Shown here: one piece after another, positions 7,120 to 24,382 of the stretch
Numbering within the stretch: position 1 is the stretch's first letter
Layout: every line of letters begins with the position of its first letter
Position numbers and translations under genes: made by a program
The notes under the pieces: generated by a model
The model's input: only the letters and a program-made list of their open reading frames with translations
Database searches by the model: none
Told to the model about the DNA's origin: nothing
Origin: Acetobacteraceae bacterium
GTDB lineage: Bacteria > Pseudomonadota > Alphaproteobacteria > Acetobacterales > Acetobacteraceae
Assembly (NCBI GenBank): GCA_031291795.1
Contig: JARLIJ010000387.1
Coordinates: 1-39,073 of the forward strand
Reading direction: 5' to 3'
DNA length: 39,073 bases

Positions 7120-8283
7120 GTGCGATCCTGGTGCATTCTCGCCGCCCTGGCGCTTGGGCGGATCGCCTTCGGCTACCAGTTCCAGACCGTGGCGACGCTG
7201 GCACCGGACCTGGTGCCACGCTTCCAGTTGTCCTACGCCGCGTTGGGCACGCTGATCGGCGCCTACATGCTGCTGGGGATCTTCGTCGCCTTGCCCCTGG
7301 GCCTGCTCGGCCGCCGCTTCGGGGACCGGCTCGTGCTGGGCTGCGGCATGGCCTTGATGGTGGGCGGCGCCCTGGTCAGCGCGTTCGGCACCGGACCGGA
7401 CGGCATCGCCGCAGGGCGCACCGCAGCCGGCGTCGGGGCCGTCGCCATGATCGTGCTGCAGGGCAAAGTGATCGCCGACTGGTTCGAGGGCCGGCAGTTC
7501 ATGCTGGCGATCAGCATCTCGGTCTGCTCCTACCCGGTTGGCGTCGGCCTGGCCCAGCTCGTGCTGCCGCCGCTGGCCGACGCCCATGGCTGGCGCGCCG
7601 GCTTCCTGTCGGGCGGCCTGCTCGCCGCAATCGCGATGGTCCTGTTCGTCGGCACCTATCGCACGCCACCCCATGTCCGGCCGGTGCCGCGCCGGTTCGC
7701 GCTGCCGAGCGCGCGCGAGTGCCTGCTGCTGGGGATCGCCGGCCTGTGCTGGACTTTCTACACCTCGGGTTGGGCGGCGTTCGCCTCCTACCTGCCGGCG
7801 ACCATGGCGGCGCGCGGGGAGGGGCTGGCACTGACCGCCCTGGCGATGACCATCGTCACCTGGGGCAACGTGCCGGGGACGCTGTTCGGCGGCGGACTGG
7901 TCGCCCGCGTGGGCGGATTCCGTATCTTCCTGGTGGGAACCGGCGCTCTGGTGATCGGCATGGCCGGATCGGCCGTGCTGGACTGGCCGGTGACCTGGGC
8001 GCTCCTGCTGGGCAGCCTGGGTGCGCTGCATCCCGGCGTGATCATGGCGGTCGGCACGCTGTCCGCGCGGTCGGAGAACCGCGCAGTCGGGATGGCGGTG
8101 TTCTATTCGCTGTACTACCTGGGCGGGACGCTCGGCCCCGCCGCCTGCGGCCGCGTTGCCGATCTCTATGGTGGGCCGGCAGGTGGCCTGCTCGGAGCGG
8201 CTGCGATCTCCGCCCTGGCATTGCCGGCATACCTCCTGCACAGGCGGCTGGCGCACCACGAAACGATGCTGGTCCGCGCCTGA
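7120..8283 (+). CDS. MFS transporter (CynX/NarK-like permease)
   Basis: About 387 residues with roughly 12 hydrophobic segments, an MFS permease in the inner membrane. The loop between helices 2 and 3 reads LGLLGRRFGDR, the MFS motif A. Similar proteins include cyanate/nitrate-type and organic-anion permeases, but the substrate cannot be named. The GTG at 7120 was chosen because GGAG lies 5 nt upstream and helix 1 follows quickly; an in-frame GTG at 7024 would add a low-complexity leader. It is divergent from hslO across the tandem repeat. Confidence 0.85.
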   Translation: MRSWCILAALALGRIAFGYQFQTVATLAPDLVPRFQLSYAALGTLIGAYMLLGIFVALPLGLLGRRFGDRLVLGCGMALMVGGALVSAFGTGPDGIAAGRTAAGVGAVAMIVLQGKVIADWFEGRQFMLAISISVCSYPVGVGLAQLVLPPLADAHGWRAGFLSGGLLAAIAMVLFVGTYRTPPHVRPVPRRFALPSARECLLLGIAGLCWTFYTSGWAAFASYLPATMAARGEGLALTALAMTIVTWGNVPGTLFGGGLVARVGGFRIFLVGTGALVIGMAGSAVLDWPVTWALLLGSLGALHPGVIMAVGTLSARSENRAVGMAVFYSLYYLGGTLGPAACGRVADLYGGPAGGLLGAAAISALALPAYLLHRRLAHHETMLVRA

Positions 8284-8346
8284 GGATTATGACTTACCGA
8301 CCTGGGACTTAACGACTTGGCAGGGTTTTGCCGCGATCCTGCCGGT

Positions 8347-10728
8347 ATGTCCCTCGCCCTGCGCATCGTTTCGGCCATCGCACTGCTTGGCACAGCCCTG
8401 GCGATCCAGTTGGCCGGCGACTGCCTGGTCTCCTGGCATGCCGTCGAACGGGCTGCGTTGACGCGTCGCGCGGCCAATGCCAGCAGCAACATGCTGGACG
8501 CAGCCTCGGCCCTCGCCGCCGAACGCGGCCTGATGAACGGGTTGCTGGCGGCCCCGGCGGCCACGCCGCGTGCGACGCAGGAGGCGATTGCCACCCAGCG
8601 GGCCAAGGCGGACGTGGCGCTGCAGGCGGGAATGGGCGGTCTGGACGGGATCCCGGTCCTCGATCCGGGTGCGCTTGGCGCCGCGGTCGACGCCATGCAT
8701 GCCGCTGCCGCTCGGGTGGACGCCTTGCGACGGGCCGCGGAGCAGGCCGTGCAGGGCACGGCGGTCGCCCCCACCCAGCCGGTCTGGTTCGCGGCGGCAA
8801 CCGGCCAGATTGAGGCGGTGACGCGCATCCGGCGGCTGCTCGATGCCGCGGGCAATGAGGAGAGCGATGTCACGCGGCTGATCGCGGTACGCGATGCCCT
8901 GAGCGACATGGCGGAGTTCACCGGCCGGGAACGTGGCCGGATCAATGGCGTCATCGCCGCCAAGGCCAGGCTGGAACCGGCGGCCCTGCTGGAAATCGGG
9001 GCGTTGCGCGGCCGCGTGGACGCTGCATGGGGGCGTATCCAGGGACGGCTGGACGCGTTGCCGCCGGATGCGGCGGGGCCGGTACGGGCGGCCGGCGTCG
9101 CGACGTTCGAAACCTTCGCCGCCCAGCGCGGGCCGGTGTTCGAGGCTGCGGCCCGCGGGGCCGACTGGCCGATCTCCGCCCCCGGGTGGTTCGCCGCCGC
9201 CACCGCCGCGATCGACGCGGTGCATGTCGCGCAGGTCGCCGCCGGCGAGGCGCTCGACGCGACGACCCACAGTCGCGCACAGGCCGGCTGGCGGCGGTTT
9301 GCGGTTGCGGTCGGCTGGTGGATCGGCGCGCTGTGCGTGGTCGTGCTGACGGCCTGGTACGTCCGGTTCCGGGTGGTCCGCCCGCTCGATCAGGCGATCG
9401 GCTCGCTGCATGCCTTGACGGGAGGAGACCTGGACGTGGTGGTGCCGCCCGCACGCGGGCATGACGAAATCGGCCGGCTGTTGCGGGCAACGCATCGCTT
9501 CCAGGCGACTGCGCGGGCCCACCATGCGCTGGAAGAAAGCCAGGCCGAATTGCAACGCCAGGCCGACGCCGGCCGCGTGCAGGCGGTGCGCGATATCGGC
9601 GCGCTGATCGAGGAGGAGACCGGCCAGGCGGTGGGTGGTGTGGTTGGACTGGCCGAGCGGTTGGCGCAGATTTCGGCTGATGTCAGGCGGGATGCGACGG
9701 CGATTGCGGCGGCGGCACGGGTTTCGGCCGACACCGCAGCCGAGGGGCTGCGGGAGAGCGACGCGGCGGCAACCGCTGCCCATGGCTTGAACGATGCGAT
9801 CCGAGATGTCGCGCAGCAGATGGACCACGCCGCCGCCACCACGCGCGGCGTGGTCAGCCGGACGACCGAGACTCGCGAGAGCTTCGCCGCGCTGTTCGCC
9901 AGCGTGACCGAGGTGCGCGAGGTCGCCCGCCTGATCGGCGACATCGCCGGCCGCACCAATCTTCTGGCGCTCAACGCAACGATCGAGGCCGCCCGTGCGG
10001 GCGAGGCCGGCAAGGGGTTTGCCGTGGTGGCGACGGAGGTGAAGAACCTCGCCAGCCAGACGGCCCAGAGCACCGAACACATTGCCGCGCGCGTCGGTGC
10101 CATCGACACCGCGGCACGCCGGGCGCAACAGGCGCTGGACGGCATCGTCGGTGCGGTCGACGCGCTGGATGCGATCGCCACCCAGGTGGCAGCGGCGGTC
10201 GAGGAACAATCGGCGGCGACCGGCCAGATCGCTGCGGCGGTGGAGGGCGCGTCGGTCGCAGCGCGGCGCACCGCCGAACAGGTGTCCGGGATGGCCGACC
10301 TGGCCACAAGCTGCTCCGACGGCGTGGCTGCGATGCAGGCTATCGGCACGCAGACGGTGCAGCAGATCAGCGGCTTGCAGAACGCCCTGGTGGCGATCCT
10401 CCGATCGCGGGTGGCGGAGCTGAACCGGCGCGACAGCGACCGCGTTCCGGTGGCGTTGCCGGCACGGTTGATCCATGCGGGCGGCACGACAACGGGACTG
10501 TTGCGCGACCTCTCGGCTGGCGGCGCGCGCTTTTCCGGCGCTGCCCTTGCGGCATCGACCGCCCAATTGCAGGCCGCCGGCCTGCCAAACGCAGCCGTGC
10601 GCGTGGTGGGGCGATCCGAGGATGCGTTGCACCTGGCATTCGCGTTCGCCTCGGACGACGAGCGGCACCGCATGGCCGAGGCGGTTGCACGACTGACGGC
10701 GGCCCCGGTCACGGCCCTCGCGGCCTGA
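8347..10728 (+). CDS. Methyl-accepting chemotaxis protein with C-terminal PilZ domain
   Basis: A 793-residue chemoreceptor. A first membrane helix at about 5-24 precedes a long periplasmic helical region (about 30-315) with ERGLMNGLL and [12 protein letters not shown], resembling NIT (nitrate/nitrite-sensing type) domains. A second membrane helix lies at about 318-338, then a HAMP domain ([20 protein letters not shown]), then the signalling domain with the conserved hairpin [20 protein letters not shown] that contacts CheA/CheW. The C-terminus adds a PilZ-type domain: RRDSDR and DLSAGGARF match the RxxxR and D/NxSxxG motifs that bind cyclic di-GMP. The ligand and the flagellar or other target are unknown. 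It ends exactly where recX ends on the other strand. Confidence 0.9.
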
Positions 10729-11358
10729 TCAGCGTCGCAGGGCCAGCACGCGGTCCTCGGCTTCCGCCGGGTCCATCGCAAGGGCCTGCGCGGCAAGCGC
10801 CTGCACAAACCCGGCGCGGGCCAGGATTCCCAACTCCTTGCGGTGGACCGCCTCGTCGGCGGTGTCTGCGGCCCGGAACGGGCCGATACGCCGGCGGCGC
10901 GCCAGGCTCAGGGCTGCTGCCAGTTCGGTGTCCGGATCATCGGGGGCCGCGCTGCGTGCCAGTTCCGTATCGACTCCTTTGGCCGCGAGATGCGCCGCGA
11001 TGGCGCGGCGGGAGCGGCCGGCCCGGGTCAGGCTGCGCGCGCGGCTGGCGGCGAACTCGGCGTCGCTGACCGCGCCGGCCGCGGCGAGGCGGGCGACCAC
11101 GGCGCCCGCAATGGCGCTGGCCGTGGCGGCCAGTTCCGCGACGGTTTCGCGGTCGGCGCCGACTTCTGCGGCGCGCGCCCATCGCTCGATCCGCCGCTGC
11201 AGCACGCGGCGCAAACCGGCCTCGGTCGCCGCATAGCGGGCGAGATGCGCCAGTGCCGCGTCACGCAGGGATGTCTCGTCGGGCGGCGGCCCAACAGGAC
11301 GCGCGCCAACGGAATCGCCGGCGGGGTGATTGATGCGGGAAGCAGGGCGATGCGCCAT
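10729..11358 (-). CDS. recX: RecX family regulatory protein
   Basis: About 209 residues, rich in Arg and Ala helices, with the RecX-type start of the first repeat (LAHLARYAATEAGLRRVLQRR) and later three-helix repeats (VSDAEFAASRARSL; GRSRRAIAAHLAAKGV). RecX binds RecA filaments and limits recombinase activity. The start is uncertain: ATG at 11358 (MAHRPASRIN) is used, with an upstream in-frame alternative at 11442. The gene is convergent with the chemoreceptor gene with no gap and is not next to recA in this window. Confidence 0.82.
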   Translation of the reverse strand: MAHRPASRINHPAGDSVGARPVGPPPDETSLRDAALAHLARYAATEAGLRRVLQRRIERWARAAEVGADRETVAELAATASAIAGAVVARLAAAGAVSDAEFAASRARSLTRAGRSRRAIAAHLAAKGVDTELARSAAPDDPDTELAAALSLARRRRIGPFRAADTADEAVHRKELGILARAGFVQALAAQALAMDPAEAEDRVLALRR

Positions 11359-11481
11359 GTCCGCACGATGCCATCCCGGCAGTACGGCGCAAGGCCGCAT
11401 TGCGCGCCGGGCACAGCGGAATACGCGCTGCTTGTTTGACACCCGGCCAGCCGGCAGCCAATGTCCGCGGCTCCCCAGGAA

Positions 11482-11503
11482 CCGCCCCGAATGATCGGGG
11501 CGG
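11482..11503 (+). promoter_or_regulatory. Hairpin in the argD leader
   Basis: CCGCCCCGA (11482-11490) and TCGGGGCGG (11495-11503) form a perfect 9-bp stem with a 4-nt loop, followed 9 nt later by TTTT. It lies 45 bp before argD in the divergent recX/argD gap, where no gene ends. It could be an attenuator or a regulator site; the role is inferred only from position and shape. Confidence 0.4.
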
Positions 11504-11548
11504 GAGATCCGTTTTGTGGGACGCCACTAACGAGGGTCAGAACCCCCG

Positions 11549-12742
11549 ATGATTTCCGCTCTTCTGCCGAACTACGCGCGTGCCGACCTCGCTTTCGAGC
11601 GGGGCGAAGGTGCCTGGTTGTGGACGGTCGACGGGCGACGATTCCTCGATTTCGGGTCCGGCATCGCCACCGCGTCCCTCGGCCACGGCCATCCGCATCT
11701 CGTCAAGGCCATCGCCGACCAGGCGGCCAAGGTGATGCACACCTCGAACCTGTACCGCATTCCGCAGGCCGAACGGCTGGCCCAGCGGCTGGTAGAGGCG
11801 ACGTTCGCCGACAGCGTGTTCTTCTGCAACTCGGGCGCGGAAGCGAACGAGGGCATGATCAAGATGATGCGCCGCGCAATGTCGGATGCCGGCAAGCCGG
11901 AGCGGTTCCGGCTGATCTGCTTCGAGGGCGCGTTCCACGGCCGCACGCTGGCGACGCTGGCAGCGACCGGAAACGCGAAATATTTGGAAGGCTTCGGCCC
12001 GGTGGTCGAGGGCTTCGATCACGTCCCGTTCAACAACATGAACGCGGTGCGCAACGCGATCGGGTCCGGGACCTGCGGCATCATCGTGGAACCGATCCAG
12101 GGCGAGGGCGGCGTGCGACCGGCCGACCTGCAGTTCCTGCGCGACCTGCGGGCTGTGTGCGACGAGTTCGGCATCATCCTCGGGATGGATGAGGTGCAAT
12201 CCGGCATGGGCCGCACCGGCAAGCTGTTCGCGCATGAATGGGCCGGTATCACCCCGGACGTCATGTCGGCGGCCAAGGGCATCGGCGGCGGCTTCCCGCT
12301 GGGTGCCGTGCTGGCCAAGGAACAGTTCGCCAAGGCGCTCAAGCCCGGCACGCATGGCACCACGTTCGGCGGCAACCCGCTCGCCTGCGCCGCTGGCAAC
12401 GCCGTGCTGGACGTGATCCTCGCGCCCGGCTTCCTGGAAGACGTCCAGCGCAAAGGCCGCAAGCTGCGATCCGAACTGGACGCTGTCGCACGTGAATTCC
12501 CGACCGTGTTCGCAGACGCGCGCGGCATGGGCCTTCTGCTCGGGCTCAAATGCGTGCTGCCGCAGGGGCAGGTGCAAGCGGCCTGCGTCGCCGAGGGGCT
12601 GATGGCAATCACCGCGGGCGACAACGTGCTGCGCCTGGCACCCCCGCTGGTCGTGACCGACAGCGATATCGAGCAAGGCGTGGCGATGCTGCGCCGTGCC
12701 GCCGCGACCTGTGCCGCCGAGGCACGGGCAGGCGCACGATGA
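11549..12742 (+). CDS. argD: Acetylornithine/succinyldiaminopimelate aminotransferase
   Basis: A 397-residue class III PLP aminotransferase. It transfers the amino group to N-acetylglutamate semialdehyde in arginine synthesis. [18 protein letters not shown] (91-108) is the phosphate-binding SGxEANE region. D214-E215 lie in [14 protein letters not shown], and K243 in [15 protein letters not shown] is the PLP lysine. [11 protein letters not shown] also fits the family. Length is normal. Its stop overlaps the argF start (ATGA), so the two are cotranslated. Confidence 0.94.
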
Positions 12743-13707
12743 GCGCGGCACTCCGGCGTCCCCGGAACGACACTGGCCGCGCCTCCGACATGGAGGCCGG
12801 CCCGCGGCACTTCCTTGATCTGCGCGATTTCGATACGGCGACCCTGCGCCAGATGCTGGACGTGGCATCCGGCTTCAAGCGAACGGGGGGCGTGACGTCG
12901 CGCCCACTCGCCGGCAAGACCCTGGCACTGATCTTCGAGAAGCCATCCACCCGCACCCGCGTCTCGTTCGAGGTCGGGATGCGGCAGTTGGGTGGCGACG
13001 TCGTCGTGTTGTCGGGTCGTGATATGCAGACCGGGCGCGGGGAAATTCCCGCCGATACCGCACGTGTGCTGTCGCGCTACGTCGATGCGATCGTGCTGCG
13101 CACCGACAACGTCTCGAAGCTGCATGAGCTGGCGGAGTTCGCCACCGTGCCGGTGATCAACGGCCTGACCGATACGTCGCACCCGTGCCAGCTGATGGCC
13201 GACGTGCTGACGTTCGAGGAGCATCGTGGCCCGATCGCCGGGCAAATCGTGGCTTGGTGCGGCGACGGCAACAACGTTGCGCGCAGCTGGATCGAGGCGG
13301 CGGTGCGTTTCGGCTTCACCCTGCGCCTCGCCACGCCCGACGCGCTGACGCCGCCCAAGGAGCTGCTGGACTGGGCGCGCGCCCAGGGCGGCAAGATCGA
13401 GCTGACCGACGATCCCGAGAAGGCTGTCGCCGGGGCGCGCTGCGTGGTGACCGATACCTGGGTCTCGATGTCGGACGATCCGCAGACCAGCCGGCACAAC
13501 CTGCTGGCGCCGTACCGCGTGACGAGCGAGCTGATGGCAAAGGCCGCATCGGACGCGATCTTCATGCACTGCCTGCCCGTGCATCGCGGCGAGGAGGTCA
13601 CCGCCGAGGTAATCGACGGTCCGCAATCCGTGGTGTTCGATGAGGCCGAGAACCGCCTGCACGCCCAGAAAGGCGTCCTGGCCTGGGCGCTCGGCGCCGC
13701 GCGCTAG
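12739..13707 (+). CDS. argF: Ornithine carbamoyltransferase
   Basis: A 322-residue enzyme forming citrulline from ornithine and carbamoyl phosphate. It shows the carbamoyl-phosphate motif STRTR (70-74), HPCQ (148-151), the ornithine loop near WVSMSDD and HCLP (277-280). The ATG overlapping the argD stop is taken as start; an internal ATG at 12790 would remove a short, poorly conserved leader and is a realistic alternative. Confidence 0.95.
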
Positions 13708-17138: not shown

Positions 17139-17396
17139 ATGATCACTGCTGCACAGATCCGCGCCGCCCGTGCCCTGCTGGGAATCGACCAGCGTCGTCT
17201 GGCAGAGCTGTCCGCGCTGTCGCTGCCGACCATCCAGCGCATGGAAGCCAGCGACGGGGTCGTGCGCGGCAATGTCGACTCGCTGATGAAGCTCGTGGGT
17301 GCGCTGCAGGCCGCCGGGATCGAGCTGATTGGGGAGAGGGCGCCGAGCCCTTCCGGTGGACGCGGCGTACGGTTGGTTGCGGACCGGACTGCATGA
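17139..17396 (+). CDS. Small XRE-type helix-turn-helix regulator
   Basis: An 85-residue protein whose first two thirds form a lambda-repressor-like fold: ITAAQIRAARALLGIDQRRLAELSALSLPTIQRMEAS has the typical helix-turn-helix order. No ligand domain follows. Its stop overlaps the hyfB ATG (ATGA at 17393-17396), so it is translated with the Ehr operon and may regulate it. The 230-bp gap upstream (16909-17138) has no other gene and must hold the operon promoter; only short imperfect inverted repeats such as GAGAC/GTCTC (17098-17120) were seen there. Confidence 0.8.
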   Translation: MITAAQIRAARALLGIDQRRLAELSALSLPTIQRMEASDGVVRGNVDSLMKLVGALQAAGIELIGERAPSPSGGRGVRLVADRTA

Positions 17397-19393
17397 TTTC
17401 CCTCGTCGCGCTGTGCGTCCTGGCCCTGTTGGTCCTTGCCCTCCTGGGTGCGGTCACCGCGCTGATGCCGGTCGGCCGGGTTTTGGTCTACGGCGGCAGC
17501 CTCGTGCTGTGCCTGGTGCTCTTGGTCGCCGGCCTCGCCAGCCTCGACACCACCGTCCAGCGCGTCACCCTTCCGCTGGGGCTGCCGTGGATCGGGGCCC
17601 ATTTGCGGCTGGATGCGCTGGCGGCCGGCTTCCTGGTGCTGATCGGGTTGGGAGGCGCCGGAGCGAGCCTGTTCGCCCTCGGCTACGGCCGGCATGAACA
17701 CGCGCCGCAGCGGGTGTTGCCTTTCTATCCTGCCTTCCTCGCCGGCATGGTTCTCGTGGTGCTCGCGGACGATGCGTTCCTGTTCCTGTTCGCCTGGGAA
17801 CTGATGTCACTCGCCTCCTGGGCGCTGGTGATGACCGACCATCAGGCCGAGGGCACCGCACGCGCCGGCTTCGTCTACCTGCTGATGGCAACGTTCAGCG
17901 GGCTGACGCTGTTGTTGGCGTTCGGATTGCTGGCCGGCGCGCAGGGCGGCTACGACTTCGCATCCATGCGCCAGGCGCATCCGACCGGCTTGCTGGCGGC
18001 CCTCGTGTTCGTGCTGGCGACGATCGGGGCCGGGTCCAAGGCGGGCCTCGTGCCGCTGCACGTCTGGCTGCCGCTCGCGCACCCGGCCGCGCCCAGCCAC
18101 GTCTCCGCGCTGATGAGCGGCGTGATGACGAAGGTCGCGGTCTACGGCTTCATCCGCATCGTGTTCGACCTGATGGGCGGGCCGGTGTGGTGGCAGGCCG
18201 TCGTGGTCCTCGCGCTGGGTGGCGTCACCGCCGTGCTGGGCGTGCTGCAGGCGCTGATGGAGCACGACGTGAAGCGCCTGCTGGCCTGCTCCACGATCGA
18301 GAACGTGGGTATCATCTTCATCGGCCTCGGCCTCGCGATGGCGTTCCAGGTGAACGGCTTCATCGCCGGTGCGGCGCTCGCGATGACGGCGGCGCTGTTC
18401 CACGCGTTCAACCACACACTGTTCAAGAGCCTGCTGTTCTTCACCGCCGGATCGGTGCTGAGCGCGACCGGCACGCGCGACCTGGAGCGGCTGGGCGGCC
18501 TCATCCACCGGATGCCGCCCACCGCGGTCGTGGCGCTGGTGGGCTGCATGGCGATCTCCGCACTGCCGCCGCTGAACGGGTTCGCCTCGGAATGGCTGAT
18601 CTTCCAGGCCGTGCTGCTGCGTCCCGACCTGCCGCAATGGGGCCTGAAGTTCATGCTGCCGGTGGATGGTGCGCTGCTCGCGTTGGCCGCGGCCCTGGCG
18701 GCGGCGTGCTTCGTGCGGCTGTTCGGGATCGGCTTCCTCGGCCGGCCGCGCAGCCCGGCAGCCGCCGAGGCGCAGGAGGTCGATCGGTTCTCGATCGCCG
18801 CCATGGCGGTGTTCGCAGCCCTTTGCTTACTGGCAGGACTGTTCCCCGGTGCCGCGATCGATGCCATCGCGCCGATCGTGGACCTGCTGCTCGCAGGCCG
18901 GATGCCGGTGCAGCTTGCCGATCCCTGGCTGACCATCGCACCGATCGCGGCCAGCCGCAGCTCCTACAACGGCCTGCTGGTGGCGACCTTCATCGTCGTG
19001 TCGACGACGATCGCCGCGGTGGGTATCCACCGGCTGGCGTCCAGAGCGGTCCGGCGCGCGCCGATCTGGGATTGCGGCTTCCCGGACGCGCGGCCGATCA
19101 CGCAATACAGTGGCGCCAGCTTTGCCCAGCCGTTGCGCCGCATATTCGGCGCCGTGGTGTTCCGCGCGCACGAGACCGTCGACATGCCCGCGCCGGGGGA
19201 GACCCGTCCCGCCACGATCCGCAAGACCATCCATGATCCGGTCTGGGACGCACTCTACGCGCCGCTCGTCGGGCTGGTCACCTGGGCGGCCGAGGCGATG
19301 AACGTGCTGCAGTTCCTCACCATCCGCCGTTACCTGGCATTTGTGTTTGCGGCCCTGGTGGTCCTGCTGCTGGCGCTCACGCTATGGCAGTGA
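17393..19393 (+). CDS. hyfB: HyfB-like proton-pumping antiporter subunit of an Ehr-type complex
   Basis: A 666-residue, multi-helix membrane protein of the NuoL/MrpA/HyfB antiporter family. The key proton-path residues are present: E136 in FAWELMSLASW, K216 in GAGSKAGLVPLHVWLP, and a histidine in HPAAPSHVSALMSG. The C-terminal third includes WDCGFPDARPITQYSGASFAQPLRRIFG, a feature of HyfB/HycC proteins. It should form the distal ion-pumping part of a membrane arm. It overlaps the XRE gene by 4 bp and hyfC by 10 bp. The hydrogenase gene name is used only for homology; see hyfG. Confidence 0.9.
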   Translation: MISLVALCVLALLVLALLGAVTALMPVGRVLVYGGSLVLCLVLLVAGLASLDTTVQRVTLPLGLPWIGAHLRLDALAAGFLVLIGLGGAGASLFALGYGRHEHAPQRVLPFYPAFLAGMVLVVLADDAFLFLFAWELMSLASWALVMTDHQAEGTARAGFVYLLMATFSGLTLLLAFGLLAGAQGGYDFASMRQAHPTGLLAALVFVLATIGAGSKAGLVPLHVWLPLAHPAAPSHVSALMSGVMTKVAVYGFIRIVFDLMGGPVWWQAVVVLALGGVTAVLGVLQALMEHDVKRLLACSTIENVGIIFIGLGLAMAFQVNGFIAGAALAMTAALFHAFNHTLFKSLLFFTAGSVLSATGTRDLERLGGLIHRMPPTAVVALVGCMAISALPPLNGFASEWLIFQAVLLRPDLPQWGLKFMLPVDGALLALAAALAAACFVRLFGIGFLGRPRSPAAAEAQEVDRFSIAAMAVFAALCLLAGLFPGAAIDAIAPIVDLLLAGRMPVQLADPWLTIAPIAASRSSYNGLLVATFIVVSTTIAAVGIHRLASRAVRRAPIWDCGFPDARPITQYSGASFAQPLRRIFGAVVFRAHETVDMPAPGETRPATIRKTIHDPVWDALYAPLVGLVTWAAEAMNVLQFLTIRRYLAFVFAALVVLLLALTLWQ

Positions 19394-20373
19394 CCGAGGC
19401 GACACTGGCCGAGGCGATGGCAGCGCTCGGTTCGCTCCTGGTCCAGTTCCTGCAAATGGCGCTGGTGCTGGCGCTGTCGCCGCTGCTGACCGGGGTGGTG
19501 CGCAAGGTCAAGGCCAGACTGCAACGGCGGCAGGGCGCCTCCGTGATCCAGCCCTATCGCGACCTGCGCCGCCTGATGGGCAAGGAGGTCGTGCTGGCCG
19601 ACAACGCCTCCTGGTTGTTCCGCGTCGCGCCCTACTTCATCTTCGCGAGCACCTGGGTGGCGGCCACGCTGGTACCGACCTTCGCCACCGGCCTGCTGTT
19701 CTCCTGGTCCGGCGACCTGATCGTGATCACCGCGCTGGTGGGCAGCGCGCGCTTCGTCCAGGCGCTCGCCGGTATGGATATCGGCACCAGCTTCGGCGGC
19801 CTCGGCGCCTCGCGGGAGGTGATGATCGCCTCGCTCGCCGAACCGGCCATGATGATGATCGTATTCTGCGTGGCGCTGATCGCCGGCTGCACGCAATTGT
19901 CCACCATCGCCGGGTTCATGCTGTCGGAGGCCGTTGGCCTGCGCGTGTCGCTGGCCCTGGCACTGGTCGCGCTGATCATCGTGGCCGTTGCGGAAAACAG
20001 CCGCATCCCGGTCGACAACCCCGCCACGCACCTGGAGCTGACCATGGTGCATGAGGCGATGGTGCTGGAATACTCCGGTCGGCATCTGGCGATGATCGAG
20101 CTGGCATCCTCGGTGAAGCTGCTGCTCTACGTCTCGCTGATCGGCTGCATCTTCGTGCCGGTCGGCCTGGTGCACGGTTCTGCCCCCCGCGCTGCCTATG
20201 CCATCGGGATCGTGGCCTGGCTGGCCAAGCTGGCGGTCGGCGGCACGCTGCTGGCCGTGCTGGAAACCTCGGTCGCCAAGATGCGCGTGTTCCGTGTGCC
20301 CAACTTTCTCGGTGCGGCCCTGATGCTGGGACTGCTCGGCGTGCTCCTGCTGTTCGTTTCGCGAGGCATGTGA
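19384..20373 (+). CDS. hyfC: HyfC-like (NuoH-type) membrane subunit
   Basis: A 329-residue membrane protein of the complex I subunit 1 (NuoH/HyfC/HycD) family, which links the membrane arm to the peripheral arm. Characteristic parts are QALAGMDIGTSFGGLGASRE and ENSRIPVDNPATHLELTMVH, whose charged residues line the cavity leading towards the antiporters. It overlaps hyfB by 10 bp and is followed by hyfE after 3 bp. Confidence 0.92.
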   Translation: MAVTEATLAEAMAALGSLLVQFLQMALVLALSPLLTGVVRKVKARLQRRQGASVIQPYRDLRRLMGKEVVLADNASWLFRVAPYFIFASTWVAATLVPTFATGLLFSWSGDLIVITALVGSARFVQALAGMDIGTSFGGLGASREVMIASLAEPAMMMIVFCVALIAGCTQLSTIAGFMLSEAVGLRVSLALALVALIIVAVAENSRIPVDNPATHLELTMVHEAMVLEYSGRHLAMIELASSVKLLLYVSLIGCIFVPVGLVHGSAPRAAYAIGIVAWLAKLAVGGTLLAVLETSVAKMRVFRVPNFLGAALMLGLLGVLLLFVSRGM

Positions 20374-20376
20374 CGC

Positions 20377-21039
20377 ATGCACAGCCTGTCCTTCGACATC
20401 GCGCATATGCTGGCCGGCGGGCTGGTACTGGTGAGTTTCCTGATGCTCTACCAGGATCGGCTGTACGCGCTGCTGAATGTGCTGGCGCTGCACGCCCTAG
20501 TGCTGGCCCTCTCGGTGGCCTGGCAGGCGCATATCCAGGACGCGCCGCATCTCTACATCACTGCCGCCATCGCCCTCGGCTTCAAGGCCATCCTGATCCC
20601 CTGGGCCTTGCGCAAGATGGTCTTCCGCCTGGGCATCCACCGCGAGGTCGAGACCGTGGTCAGCATCGGGCTGACAATGCTGGCGGGCATGGCCCTTGTC
20701 GCGCTGTCGCTGCAGGTGATGCTGCCGGTGACCGCCCAGGCAGACCCAGTCGCGCGCGAGGATATCGCCCTGGCGCTGTCCGTGGTGCTGATCGGGCTGC
20801 TGATGATGGTCACCCGCCGCAACGCCGTCAGCCAGGTGGTCGGCTTCCTGTCGCTGGAGAACGGCATCATCTTCGCCGCCACCGGCGCCCGCGGCATGCC
20901 CCTGGTCGTGGAAATCAGCGTGGCCTTCTCCGTCCTGATCGCCTTCATCGTCGTGGGCATCTTCCTGTTCCGCATCCGCGAACGCTTCGACACCGTCGAT
21001 GACGCCGCCCTGGACCAGTTCCGCGGGGGGCGTTCGTGA
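20377..21039 (+). CDS. hyfE: HyfE-like (NuoK-containing) membrane subunit
   Basis: A 220-residue membrane protein with about six helices. HyfE proteins combine a NuoK-like part with extra helices. The segment VTRRNAVSQVVGFLSLENGIIFAA is the NuoK-like core with its buried Glu. It ends just before a palindromic element that separates it from hyfF. No hyfD gene lies between hyfC and hyfE, unlike the E. coli hyf operon. Confidence 0.88.
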   Translation: MHSLSFDIAHMLAGGLVLVSFLMLYQDRLYALLNVLALHALVLALSVAWQAHIQDAPHLYITAAIALGFKAILIPWALRKMVFRLGIHREVETVVSIGLTMLAGMALVALSLQVMLPVTAQADPVAREDIALALSVVLIGLLMMVTRRNAVSQVVGFLSLENGIIFAATGARGMPLVVEISVAFSVLIAFIVVGIFLFRIRERFDTVDDAALDQFRGGRS

Positions 21040-21050
21040 TGGCGCGCGTT

Positions 21051-21288
21051 CCTGGGGCTTCGCCCCAGACCCCACCCGGGGCGCTGCCCCTGGACCCCGC
21101 CAGGGACACAGTCCCTGGACCCATTCTGTTGGTGTTCTCCGGGGTAGAGGGGCCAACACGGACCTTGGTCGGTCTGGATTGGCCCCTCTACCCCGGAGAA
21201 CACCAATGGATCGGTTCCAAGGGCCGTCGCCCTTGGCGGGGGTCCAGGGGGCAGCGCCCCCTGGTGGGGTTCGGGGCGAAGCCCCGGG
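21051..21288. repeat. Long palindromic (MITE-like) element between hyfE and hyfF
   Basis: Almost the entire 259-bp gap is an inverted repeat. The outer arms begin with GGGGCTTCGCCCC (21054) and end with GGGGCGAAGCCCC (21273-21285). The inner arms, 21129-21155 and 21180-21206, are perfect 27-bp complements around a 24-bp loop. The arms between match with scattered changes (for example GGGGCGCTGCCCC against GGGGGCAGCGCCCCC). No transposase frame is present. The element resembles a non-autonomous or REP/BIME-like repeat that landed within the operon; its right edge supplies GGGGA 8 nt before the hyfF ATG. Confidence 0.85.
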
Positions 21289-21298
21289 GACACACACC

Positions 21299-22738
21299 AT
21301 GACAATCGATCCCGTGGAGCTGGTCCTGCTGGTGCCGTTGGTGGCGGCAGCGCTGCTGGTGGTGGTGCCGTCGTATCGGCTGGGGGCGGCGGGGAACATG
21401 CTGGCCTGCCTGGTCACGCTGGTCTGCGCCCTGATGCTGTTGGGCGATCGGCCGGTGCCTGGGCAGTATTTGCTGGTCGACGACCTGAACGTCGTATTCA
21501 TCGTGCTGAACAGCTTCGTGGGCTTCACCACCAGCACGTTCAGCGCCTCCTACATCGCGCATGAGCTGGAGACCGGGCGCCTGACGCCGCGCCATTTGCG
21601 GTTTTACCACGCGATGTTCCAGCTGATGCTGTTCGGCATGAACCTGGCGCTGGTCGCCAACAACATCGGCCTGATGTGGGTGGCCGTGGAGCTCGCCACG
21701 CTCACCACCGTCGTCATGGTCGGCATCTACCGCACGCATGAGGCGCTGGAAGCCGCCTGGAAGTACTTCATCCTCGGCAGCGTCGGCATCGCGCTCGCGC
21801 TGTTCGGCACCATCCTGGTTTACATCGCCGCACGGCCCGTGGTGGGTGAGGGGATGGATGCGATGGTCTGGACCACCTTGATCGCCCATGCGCGCGACTT
21901 CGATCCGCCGTTGCTGAACATCGCCTTCATCTTCCTGCTGCTGGGCTATGGCACGAAGGTTGGCCTGGCCCCGCTGCATGCCTGGCTGCCCGACGCCCAC
22001 GCCGAGGGCCCCACGCCGATCTCCGCCGTCCTGTCCGGCCTGCTGCTGAACGTGGCGCTGTACGCATTGCTGCGGTTCAAGATGCTGCTGGCGGCCAATC
22101 CCGACGCCATCGCGCCTGGCCCGCTGATGATCGCGCTCGGGCTGCTGTCGGTGATCTTTGCCGGGCTGATGCTGTATCGCCGTCGAGACATCAAGCGGCT
22201 GTTCGCCTATTCCTCGATCGAGCACATGGGCATCATCGTGTTCGCCTTCGGCATGGCCGGGCCGCTCGGGAATTTTGCGGGACTGCTGCAGATGACGATG
22301 CACAGCCTGACCAAGTCGGCGATCTTCTTCACCGTCGGCCATATCGCGCAGGTGAAGGGCACCCAGCGCATCGCGGAGATGGGTGGCCTGACCGAAACCC
22401 ACCCCTTGCTTGGCTGGGGCCTCGTGGCGGGCGTGGCGGCGATCCTCGGCTTGCCGCCGTTCGGCGTGTTCACCAGCGAGTTCCTGGTCGTGACCTCCAC
22501 CTTCGCTCGCGAGCCGGTGCTGGCGGTGCTGCTGGTGATCGGATTGCTGCTGGCGTTCGGCGCGCTGCTGCTGCGCCTGACCGATGTCGCGTTCGGGCCG
22601 GTGCGCGGGCCGATCGGGCCGGTGCATGCGTCGTATATCCCGCTGTTCGCCCATCTGCTGCTGGTGCTGATCGCCGGCATCTGGCTGCCGGGGCCGATGG
22701 TCGCCTGGTTCCAGCACGTCGCGGCCCTCCTCGGATGA
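21299..22738 (+). CDS. hyfF: HyfF-like (NuoN/NuoM-type) antiporter subunit
   Basis: A 479-residue multi-helix antiporter-family subunit. MWVAVELATLTTVVM carries the conserved helix-5 Glu, and GYGTKVGLAPLHAWLPDAHAEGPTPISAVLSG carries the helix-7 Lys and the broken-helix region. The ATG at 21299 (MTIDPVELVLL) has GGGGA 8 nt upstream. An open frame runs back through the palindromic element to 20999 but lacks any membrane or family sequence there, so it is not used. The stop overlaps the hyfG start (ATGA). Confidence 0.92.
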   Translation: MTIDPVELVLLVPLVAAALLVVVPSYRLGAAGNMLACLVTLVCALMLLGDRPVPGQYLLVDDLNVVFIVLNSFVGFTTSTFSASYIAHELETGRLTPRHLRFYHAMFQLMLFGMNLALVANNIGLMWVAVELATLTTVVMVGIYRTHEALEAAWKYFILGSVGIALALFGTILVYIAARPVVGEGMDAMVWTTLIAHARDFDPPLLNIAFIFLLLGYGTKVGLAPLHAWLPDAHAEGPTPISAVLSGLLLNVALYALLRFKMLLAANPDAIAPGPLMIALGLLSVIFAGLMLYRRRDIKRLFAYSSIEHMGIIVFAFGMAGPLGNFAGLLQMTMHSLTKSAIFFTVGHIAQVKGTQRIAEMGGLTETHPLLGWGLVAGVAAILGLPPFGVFTSEFLVVTSTFAREPVLAVLLVIGLLLAFGALLLRLTDVAFGPVRGPIGPVHASYIPLFAHLLLVLIAGIWLPGPMVAWFQHVAALLG

Positions 22739-24225
22739 GCGCGCTGGCCGCCCTGGTGGAAGCCGGCGCCCTGGCCGCCGCGCACCAGCCGTTCCCTTGC
22801 GTGGCGGTGGATGTGGCGACCTGGGAACAGGCGATCGACGGCCTCGTCGCCGGCGAAACCACGTTGCTAAGCGTGTGGGGCGATATCGGGCGCGTGCGGA
22901 TGGCCCTGCTTGGTCCGGACAGCCCGGCCATCGCCGTGCTCAGCCTGGAATGCCCGGATGGACGCTATCCCTCGATCGCCCGTCTGCACCCGCCTGCCAT
23001 CCGGCTGGAACGCGCCCTCCGCGACCTGTTCGGCCTGGAGCCGGCCGGGCTGCCGGACGCACGTCCCTGGCTCGACCACGGCCGCTGGGACGATGGCGCG
23101 CAATCGCCCGCCGCATCCTATCCGTTCCTGCCGGTGGAGGGCGAGGCGCTGCACCAGATCCCGGTCGGCCCCGTCCATGCCGGCATCATCGAGCCGGGCC
23201 ATTTCCGCTTCACCTGCGACGGGGAGACCGTGGTGCGGCTGGAGCAGCGCCTCGGCTACACCCACAAGGGCGTCGACCGCCTGCTGGCCGGCGCGCCGCT
23301 GGCCCAGGCGGTTCGGCTGGCGGCGCGCGTGTCCGGCGACAGCACCGTCGCCTACAGCTGGGGGTTCGCCCGTGCGGTTGAGGCAGCGCTTGGCATCGCG
23401 CCCCCGCCGCGCGCGGTGTGGCTGCGTGCCGTCATGGCGGAACTGGAGCGGCTGGCCAATCACCTCGGCGATGTCGGCGGGGTCTGCAACGACGCCGCGT
23501 TCGCGCTGATGCTGGCGCATTGTGCGGTGCTGCGGGAACGTGTGCTGCGCACTTCCGCCACCTGCTTCGGGCACCGGCTGATGATGGACCGCATCGTGCC
23601 GGGCGGCGTGACGGTGGACCTCGACGGTGCCGGTCTGACGGCCCTGGCGACGATGACGGCGGAGATACGCCGGCGCTTTCCGCCGCTGGTGAAGCTGTAT
23701 GACGATCTGGCATCGCTGCAGGACCGCACCGTTACCACTGGGCGGGTGAGCGCCGCGCTCGTCGCGCAGTTCGGCGCGGGTGGCTATGTGGGCCGGGCGT
23801 CGGGGCGGGATTTCGACGCGCGCCGCGTTCCTGGCTACGCGCCGTACGATGCACTGAGCTTCGAGGTGCCGGTGCTGCAGGAGGGCGACGTCAACGCCCG
23901 CATCTGGATCCGCATCCGCGAGATCGACCAGAGCCTGTCCGTGCTCGACCAGTTGCTGCGCGGCCTGCCGACCGGTCCGGTGCGCGTGCCGGTCGAGGAC
24001 ATCCGAACCGGCCCGACCGAGGCCCTGTCCCTGACGGAAGCGTTCCGCGGCGACCTGCTGGTCTGGGTGCAGCTCGATGCCGGGCGCGTGGCGCGATGCC
24101 ATCTGCGCGACGCGTCCTGGTTCCAGTGGCCGCTGCTCGAAGCCGCGATCGAGGGCAACATCGTCGCGGACTTCCCGATCTGCAACAAAAGCTTCAACTG
24201 CTCGTATTCGGGGCACGATCTGTGA
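22735..24225 (+). CDS. hyfG: HyfG/HycE-like large subunit lacking NiFe-ligand cysteines (Ehr complex)
   Basis: A 496-residue protein joining a short NuoC-like domain (about 1-125) to a NuoD/hydrogenase-large-subunit domain. The family fold is clear: GPVHAGIIEPGHFRFTCDGE, LGYTHKGVDRLL, MAELERLANHLGDVGGVCNDA and GHRLMMDRIVPGG. At the site of the first metal motif (RVCGICGFAHS in E. coli HycE, from memory) it reads RVSGDSTVAYS (198-208), so both cysteines are gone. Near the C-terminus, where hydrogenases have DPCxSC, it reads KSFNCSYSGHDL and stops; the pair cannot be matched. It should therefore not bind a NiFe centre or handle H2. It fits the energy-converting hydrogenase-related (Ehr) group, whose reaction is unknown. 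Confidence 0.88.
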   Translation: MSALAALVEAGALAAAHQPFPCVAVDVATWEQAIDGLVAGETTLLSVWGDIGRVRMALLGPDSPAIAVLSLECPDGRYPSIARLHPPAIRLERALRDLFGLEPAGLPDARPWLDHGRWDDGAQSPAASYPFLPVEGEALHQIPVGPVHAGIIEPGHFRFTCDGETVVRLEQRLGYTHKGVDRLLAGAPLAQAVRLAARVSGDSTVAYSWGFARAVEAALGIAPPPRAVWLRAVMAELERLANHLGDVGGVCNDAAFALMLAHCAVLRERVLRTSATCFGHRLMMDRIVPGGVTVDLDGAGLTALATMTAEIRRRFPPLVKLYDDLASLQDRTVTTGRVSAALVAQFGAGGYVGRASGRDFDARRVPGYAPYDALSFEVPVLQEGDVNARIWIRIREIDQSLSVLDQLLRGLPTGPVRVPVEDIRTGPTEALSLTEAFRGDLLVWVQLDAGRVARCHLRDASWFQWPLLEAAIEGNIVADFPICNKSFNCSYSGHDL

Positions 24226-24249
24226 CGTTTCGTTCGCCACGCGCTTCAT

Positions 24250-24355
24250 CTCCCCCTCCCCTTGAGGGAGGGGGCTGGGGGGAGGGGGCCCATCGGCACC
24301 GGCGGCGGTTGTACGGACCCCTCCCCCCAACCCCCTCCCTCAAGGGGAGGGGGAG
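24250..24355. repeat. GC-rich inverted repeat (REP-like) between hyfG and hyfI
   Basis: Arms of 38-39 bp (24250-24288 and 24318-24355) are complementary with one mismatch and a one-base length difference, around a loop of about 29 bp. Each arm itself contains CTCCCCCTCCCCTTGAGGG. Related sequences occur at 33052 and 35436. It fills most of the 157-bp hyfG-hyfI gap and could form a very stable hairpin in the operon mRNA. Confidence 0.88.
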
Positions 24356-24382
24356 AATCACGATCTGCCCCGGACGTCCCCC

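Follow-up and report, generated by a model that had tools for sequence, protein, structure and literature searches.

The whole stretch of Acetobacteraceae DNA analyzed here, with a length of 39,073 nt (hereafter the window), carries on its plus strand a seven-gene cluster, that is, a helix-turn-helix gene followed by HyfB, HyfC, HyfE, HyfF, HyfG, and HyfI, whose product is almost certainly a complex of the Ehr/Hyq family. The initial annotation had assigned it to the energy-converting hydrogenase-related (Ehr) complexes. This assignment is retained, the complex being group-4-hydrogenase-like with one iron–sulfur (FeS) cluster and no nickel–iron (NiFe) ligands, and it is also the orthologue of Hyq from Azorhizobium caulinodans, an identity which had been missed. 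In the interpretation which we favor with moderate confidence, it is a six-subunit Ehr-type relative of complex I from the hydrogenase-4 line, in which a conserved site without metal has replaced the NiFe pocket. The chances are about even that it works as a quinone-linked ion-translocating oxidoreductase. By sequence, the complex has no NiFe ligands, a single proximal [4Fe-4S] cysteine set, and intact pump residues.

The large subunit, HyfG, matches both the Complex1_49kDa family (E = 4.4e-39) and the 30 kDa domain (2e-5) of Pfam and is therefore a fused NuoC/NuoD-type protein. Its best solved relative by sequence is HycE of the Escherichia coli formate hydrogenlyase (7z0s_E, E = 1.2e-52). 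The same chain is the best fold match of the HyfG structure model (Foldseek E = 8.7e-25, TM-score 0.83 by query length), which has a predicted local distance difference test score (pLDDT) of 77.5 and a predicted template modeling score (pTM) of 0.84.

Aligned with its E. coli counterparts HycE, HyfG, and NuoCD, the window HyfG shows an exchange at each of the four NiFe ligand positions (C241>S200, C244>S203, C531>S490, and C534>G493), as the initial annotation had maintained. The open reading frame (ORF) with its length of 496 amino acids (aa) and the RVSGDST motif at residues 198–204 are borne out as well, and the replaced C-terminal site reads KSFNCSYSGHDL, with C483 and C489 present as claimed. 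On these alignments, the NiFe site is to be regarded, with near certainty, as absent from HyfG. C489 aligns to the Pro of the DPC, that is, it adjoins the former ligand C531 and does not stand on it.

The conservation of the site was followed in the 80 best-scoring of the 412 HyfG relatives which a single scan of species genomes confirmed, a sample which consists of near relatives. S200, S203, and G493 are present in 80/80 relatives and S490 in 79/80. D202, K485, N488, and the cysteines C251, C483, and C489 are likewise found in all 80. Replacements frozen to this extent mark a conserved site and not decay. A relic gene is ruled out for the window cluster, as the ratio of nonsynonymous to synonymous substitutions (dN/dS) is 0.08–0.29 across the six genes in two same-genus pairs.

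HyfG stops at what we take to be the end of mature HycE. Its last residue, L496, aligns to R537 of HycE, and the next 32 HycE residues are without counterpart. Both the four cysteine ligands and the C-terminal extension of group 4 NiFe hydrogenases are thus missing. Of the six proton-relay residues named in the structure paper of formate hydrogenlyase (PMC9474812), five are kept (E193>E153, H284>H243, R395>R354, E437>E396, and R478>R438) and the sixth is changed (D529>N488). These five residues, the fold, and the N-terminal NuoC-like domain are what the window protein shares with E. coli hydrogenase-4 and formate hydrogenlyase; the ligands, D529, and the extension are what separates it from them. 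From hydrogenase-4 the window cluster differs also in the absence of HyfA, HyfD, HyfH, and HyfJ.

The A. caulinodans operon hyqRBCEFGI was named "endo-hydrogenase" in papers of 2009–2012 (PMC2650096, PMC2930871, and PMC3357923), and all the Hyq papers found in our literature searches come from one laboratory. The operon was located by a published primer in a genome of 5,369,772 bases, where four of six primers match exactly at the expected places. Its seven genes stand in the identical order R-B-C-E-F-G-I, and the tblastn identities to the window are 77% (R), 63% (B), 76% (C), 74% (E), 72% (F), 56% (G), and 69% (I). The two loci differ in that HyfI of the window is separated by a repeat.

HyqG reads RVSGDST and CNKSFNCSYAGHDL, and the motifs RVSGDST and CNKSFNCSY are common to it and the window HyfG. 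Since HyqG is without NiFe motifs, the claim of 2009 that it carries a NiFe center (PMC2650096) is not borne out. In the available sections of the 2012 paper, eight genera without both CxxC motifs are noted, the NiFe site is called "uncertain, if not unlikely", and three conserved cysteines of HyqG are given, that is, C258, C491, and C497 (PMC3357923). These correspond to C251, C483, and C489 of the window HyfG. With the lost motifs and the conserved cysteines in print since 2012, the central observation of the initial annotation was already known for the family.

In the descriptions of Ehr complexes, antiporter-like subunits and a small FeS subunit accompany a group-4-like large subunit from which the CxxC ligands are missing (PMC6349859, PMC10284858, and PMC10432482, in the sections available). 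The window shows the same composition, as a HycE-homologous large subunit with missing CxxC motifs is encoded together with HyfI, HyfB, HyfF, and HyfC. The Ehr complexes of Geobacter and of anaerobic candidate phyla are discussed in the literature with formate dehydrogenase partners, whereas none is conserved beside the window cluster. No paper joining Ehr and Hyq was found in the literature search. By sequence the two literatures deal with one family and disagree on H2; linking the two provides a genetically tractable model organism for Ehr and a sharp prediction for Hyq. The family is common, as seen from the 412 confirmed relatives and from a sample of 150 genomes of the window's own family, 23 of which have a HyfG copy at least 60% identical. 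The carriers are mostly aerobic Alphaproteobacteria, judged from record titles, and the genome records label the relatives as subunits of "hydrogenase 4" or "NADH-quinone oxidoreductase".

The four FeS cysteines which the initial annotation had ascribed to HyfI (C53, C56, C120, and C150) are kept in all 67 aligned window-type loci with this gene; in 13 of the 80 loci HyfI is not in the locus. The cysteine set is of the CxxC type, as in hydrogenases. In HyfB, E136, K216, K247, H341, K345, and E400 are kept in 64/64 aligned window-type loci, and in HyfF, E131, K220, H227, and E394 in 76/76. HyfC keeps the equivalent of NuoH E157 in 69/69 loci, and the equivalents of NuoH E216 and E218 are A or S/H. 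Because the two antiporter-like subunits show no variation in their Lys and Glu residues among the aligned loci, the ion pumping proposed in the initial annotation can be upheld as an inference.

All six subunits were found in 59 of the 80 loci, 44 of which have the order regulator-B-C-E-F-G-I, and a relative of the HyqR-like gene sits ahead of HyfB in most complete relatives. Clustering of the neighborhoods of the 80 loci (ORFs of at least 60 aa, BLAST E ≤ 1e-12) recovered the regulator and the six subunits and no further conserved partner gene, the next cluster being present in only 11/80, with the provision that many loci end at contig edges and that a very small ferredoxin could escape. 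Therefore, neither a double-cluster subunit of the HyfH/NuoI type nor HyfA, a formate module, or an NADH module belongs to the conserved locus.

In the mechanism proposed, electrons would pass singly via the one [4Fe-4S] cluster of HyfI, where a small soluble redox partner made elsewhere would act as donor or acceptor. The other electron end may be a quinone or a similar small molecule, located in the former NiFe pocket and a channel toward HyfC. Protonation of the pocket through the retained hydrogenase relay (E153, H243, R438, E396, and R354) would drive, or be driven by, the passage of H+ through HyfB and HyfF, and the machine might be reversible. The H2 phenotypes of hyq mutants could arise from redirected respiratory and nitrogenase electron flow or from the loss of the regulator HyqR, as the deletion removes hyqR too.

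HypD is required for the Fe(CN)2CO unit. Carriers of window-type HyfG gave no HypD in 37/50 and, with genome G221 left out, in 18/30 cases, together 55/80. HypD was sought also in those 50 genomes of the window's family that match HyfG most strongly; a match is present in 17 of them, in 16 above the cut-off, and absent from 33. Ten of the 23 family genomes with a HyfG at least 60% identical are without a HypD match. When these are restricted to the 16 with a completeness of at least 90% and a contamination of no more than 5%, HypD is missing from seven, and the best NiFe large-subunit match in these seven is 33.9 bits. The window's own genome (G000) gave no HypD at a completeness of 69%.

At E ≤ 1e-30, a search for nifH gave no match in 42/50 carriers, though the window's own genome has the gene. 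In the family sample, nifH is over the cut-off in 6/150 genomes, two of which carry a HyfG at least 60% identical. These counts contrast with the statement of 2010 that hyq is generally absent from non-diazotrophs (PMC2930871, sections available). Absences of HypD and nifH in metagenome-assembled genomes may be gaps; of the 21 carriers not titled as such, 16 are without a HypD match and 16 without a nifH match. The distribution of both genes among the carriers is new here. As HypD and nifH were not found in most carriers, it is unlikely that the general role of the complex is that of a Hyp-matured hydrogenase or is tied to N2 fixation; a general link to nitrogen fixation was rejected on the nifH count.

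Several observations weigh against the metal-free, quinone-linked interpretation. The pLDDT of the HyfG model falls below 50 at residues 129–176 and 473–496, which is exactly the pocket region, and no gene for the soluble redox partner was identified. The complex shares with complex I a homologous core (NuoCD, NuoB, NuoH, and NuoL/M), the window's genome having a separate NuoD on contig C411, and differs from it in the hydrogenase-type CxxC set of HyfI and in the quinone site. In detail, H224 and Y273 of E. coli NuoCD, which we take to be quinone ligands, are I152 and G201 in HyfG. For the His, this role is given in PMC9474812 (sections available). Without NiFe ligands and without the quinone His/Tyr of complex I, the pocket belongs to neither type of site and is a conserved one of a third kind.

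The main counter-evidence is the genetic signal of Hyq, which is not easily explained away. The release of H2 by A. caulinodans at 20 µM O2 was 12 in the wild type, 16 in the hup, 175 in the hyq, and 540 in the double mutant. Below 1 µM O2 the respective values were 7,100, 61,000, 2,600, and 14,000, with 56,600 for a nifK hup strain (all in pmol per 10^9 cells per min; PMC3357923). Nodule H2 evolution was seen only in the double mutant (27 vs. 0.3–0.36), and H2 recycling is said to survive a 20-gene hup/hyp deletion (PMC2930871). The hyq deletion also made diazotrophic growth about one-fifth slower, and 20% H2 was no cure (PMC2650096), the latter being a point in favor of the metal-free interpretation; as with the other Hyq papers, these data are taken from the sections available. 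In our searches of the A. caulinodans genome, full NiFe large subunits occur only at two neighboring places, read as HupL and HupV, and the remainder was one 27.9-bit fragment and HyqG itself at 27.2 bits. An [FeFe] hydrogenase was found in none of the 15 genomes searched, A. caulinodans included, with Thermotoga maritima as a positive control. With no further full NiFe subunit and no [FeFe] enzyme, another consumer of H2 is not obvious.

On the other hand, the Ehr literature treats its complexes as non-hydrogenases (PMC6349859, PMC10284858, and PMC10432482, sections available), and HydDB places Ehr among the hydrogenase homologues that do not metabolize H2. The initial annotation had stated that the complex has no hydrogenase site. 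Of this, the loss of the NiFe site stands by sequence, whereas the absence of H2 activity cannot be taken as given in view of the hyq-dependent phenotypes in vivo.

Alternatively, Hyq could both oxidize and produce H2 at a new site that the emptied pocket provides, without Fe(CN)2CO made by the Hyp proteins and perhaps with another metal held by the conserved Cys, Ser, Asp, and His residues. We regard this as rather unlikely, and the wider claim, that Ehr/Hyq forms a fourth class of genuine hydrogenases which activates H2 without the four NiFe cysteines and includes the window complex, as more doubtful still. On this wider claim, the pocket could not hold Hyp-made Fe(CN)2CO in those carriers where HypD is missing. 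The known hydrogenases have, to our knowledge, NiFe, FeFe, or FeGP (iron-guanylylpyridinol) centers, which counts against a new type, as does the view of Ehr in HydDB. Uptake and evolution of H2 in vivo depend on hyq (PMC3357923), the uptake reportedly outlasting the hup/hyp deletion, and R. centenaria, with hyq and without hup/hyp, is said to recycle H2, "data not presented" (PMC2930871); in Nitrospira, however, the expression of Ehr reportedly did not rise with H2, and the 2012 paper describes a cell-free assay as "not at hand" (PMC3357923). All these statements come from the parts of the papers available, in which a single-gene or complemented hyq strain is not seen. The three cysteines named in 2012 and the hydrogenase-type relay residues are retained, as such an activity would suggest, but type B complexes, the next-nearest to the window type with pump residues largely kept, have A or G for C489 in 5/13 cases and I or L for C483 in 4/13.

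The same losses in type B speak against a sulfane-sulfur (polysulfide) reductase of the Mbs/Mbx kind, where the pocket cysteines would react. This is very unlikely, even though the conserved cysteines adjoin the old Ni site and subunit L of Pyrococcus furiosus Mbs (6u8y_L, E = 1.3e-27) is among the solved relatives, since the closest of these is HycE and the carriers are mostly aerobic. The complex could also be a redox-regulated ion transporter, with ion exchange in the Mrp-like arm and with the one-cluster HyfG/HyfI arm solely as a redox sensor that gates it. A single encoded cluster, the lack of a conserved electron-input subunit nearby, and a pump arm whose conservation exceeds that of all known catalytic motifs of complex I and hydrogenases would fit such a transporter. 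The pocket motifs are, however, as frozen as the pump residues, and the second copy in the window's own genome has the cluster cysteines without the pump residues, which points to an electron-transfer role of this arm in its own right; a redox-gated transporter is thus improbable. Finally, an ordinary NiFe hydrogenase 4 with cysteines misread or lost by sequencing error, in favor of which are the record names and the NiFe center claimed in 2009 (PMC2650096), is practically excluded. The same replacements occur in 80/80 independent records as well as in R. leguminosarum and A. caulinodans, and there is no extension past the end of mature HycE.

The second copy is a diverged Ehr-like cluster on contig C123 of the window's genome (locus L088, positions 7181–13694, minus strand). 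Of its type, 12 loci were analyzed (L088 and L105–L115). In HyfB of this type, K216, K247, K345, and E400 are kept in none of the 10 alignable loci and E136 in two. HyfI has the four cysteines in 10/12 loci, while one locus lost three of them and one is without a HyfI match. The pocket of the second-copy HyfG consists of G200, A203, T490, and G493. The dN/dS over the comparable genes of two same-genus pairs is 0.09–0.56 (window type 0.08–0.29), and the genes are not decaying freely but are under purifying selection. A complex that, by its sequence, would have neither metal site nor pump residues and yet keeps the cluster cysteines is unexpected. In a tree of 37 sequences, several inner forks of which are weak, the second copies and several sequences from acetic-acid-type small genomes nest inside the type B branch, adjoining the window type.

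The coordinates of the cluster and of its motifs and repeats are collected in table 1. HyfF is taken to start at 21299 and not at 20999, because the longer ORF runs through the inserted repeat, which adds 100 residues; the NCBIfam subunit F match begins at residue 101 of this longer ORF. Both long palindromic repeats inside the operon are GC-rich, and an Rfam scan of the window at gathering thresholds gave no match. The HyqR-like regulator matched no Pfam family at E ≤ 0.001.

Table 1. Features of the Ehr/Hyq cluster in the window.
Feature	Position	Strand	Evidence or remark
HyqR-like small helix-turn-helix regulator, 85 aa	17139..17396	+	77% identity to A. caulinodans HyqR
HyfB/HyqB, antiporter-like membrane subunit	17393..19393	+	NCBIfam hydrogenase 4 subunit B, 849 bits (cut-off 667)
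HyfC/HyqC, NuoH-like membrane subunit	19384..20373	+	Pfam NADHdh E = 6.5e-37
HyfE/HyqE membrane subunit	20377..21039	+	NCBIfam hydrogenase 4 membrane subunit, 78.8 bits, below the 136 cut-off
Inserted palindromic repeat, HyfE/HyfF gap	21040..21298	.	Nested inverted repeats, outer arms 21026–21081 and 21258–21313
HyfF/HyqF, antiporter-like membrane subunit, 479 aa, ATG 21299	21299..22738	+	NCBIfam hydrogenase 4 subunit F, 860 bits
HyfG/HyqG (EhrL-like), large subunit of the fused NuoC/NuoD type, NiFe ligands absent, 496 aa	22735..24225	+	
Former N-terminal NiFe motif RxCGxC, now RVSGDST, residues 198–204	23326..23346	+	S200, S203 in 80/80 relatives
Former C-terminal NiFe motif DPCxxC, now CNKSFNCSYSGHDL, residues 483–496	24181..24222	+	
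Palindromic repeat, 157 bases, HyfG/HyfI gap	24226..24382	.	Arms 24249–24290 and 24315–24356, 95% complementary
HyfI/HyqI (EhrS-like), NuoB-type [4Fe-4S] subunit, C53, C56, C120, C150	24383..24886	+	Pfam Oxidored_q6 E = 1.1e-32

In nine loci of relatives (L134–L142), HyfI is unlinked, and in eight of them it lies just downstream of an acyl-CoA dehydrogenase gene. We read this as one relocation near housekeeping genes and not as a functional link. A same-genus genome (G099) is among the relatives with HyfI apart from HyfG, and in the window HyfI still adjoins HyfG behind the repeat. A third HyfI-type gene of the window's genome, 48% identical and with the four cysteines, is located on a 3.4 kb contig (C283, locus L143, positions 824–1237); by its sequence, a further related complex may be present. 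In the same genome, one frame (G000:C247:6821–7960) matches the NiFe large-subunit family at two places, with 54.5 and 29.5 bits, and probably represents a real NiFe hydrogenase, even though the 69% complete assembly gave no HypD. Beside HyfB in the type B loci L094, L095, L098, L100, and L101 there is a divergent gene pair, putatively of the TRAP (tripartite ATP-independent periplasmic) transporter type by eye.

Hyq of A. caulinodans is reported to be under NifA control, whereas the 350 bases upstream of the window cluster are without TGT-N10-ACA. This strict pattern was also not found upstream in A. caulinodans itself, so that the scan is a weak one. Among 32 upstream regions, TGT-N10-ACA occurs in two and TGGC-N7-TTGC in none; these counts carry no weight, as the strict patterns missed A. 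caulinodans too. In A. caulinodans (L150) and in the loci L031, L037, and L053, copies of ACATCA/TGATGT are seen by eye upstream of the gene for the regulator. In A. caulinodans they form the near-palindrome GATGTTTAAAACATC upstream of hyqR, which could be a putative HyqR operator.

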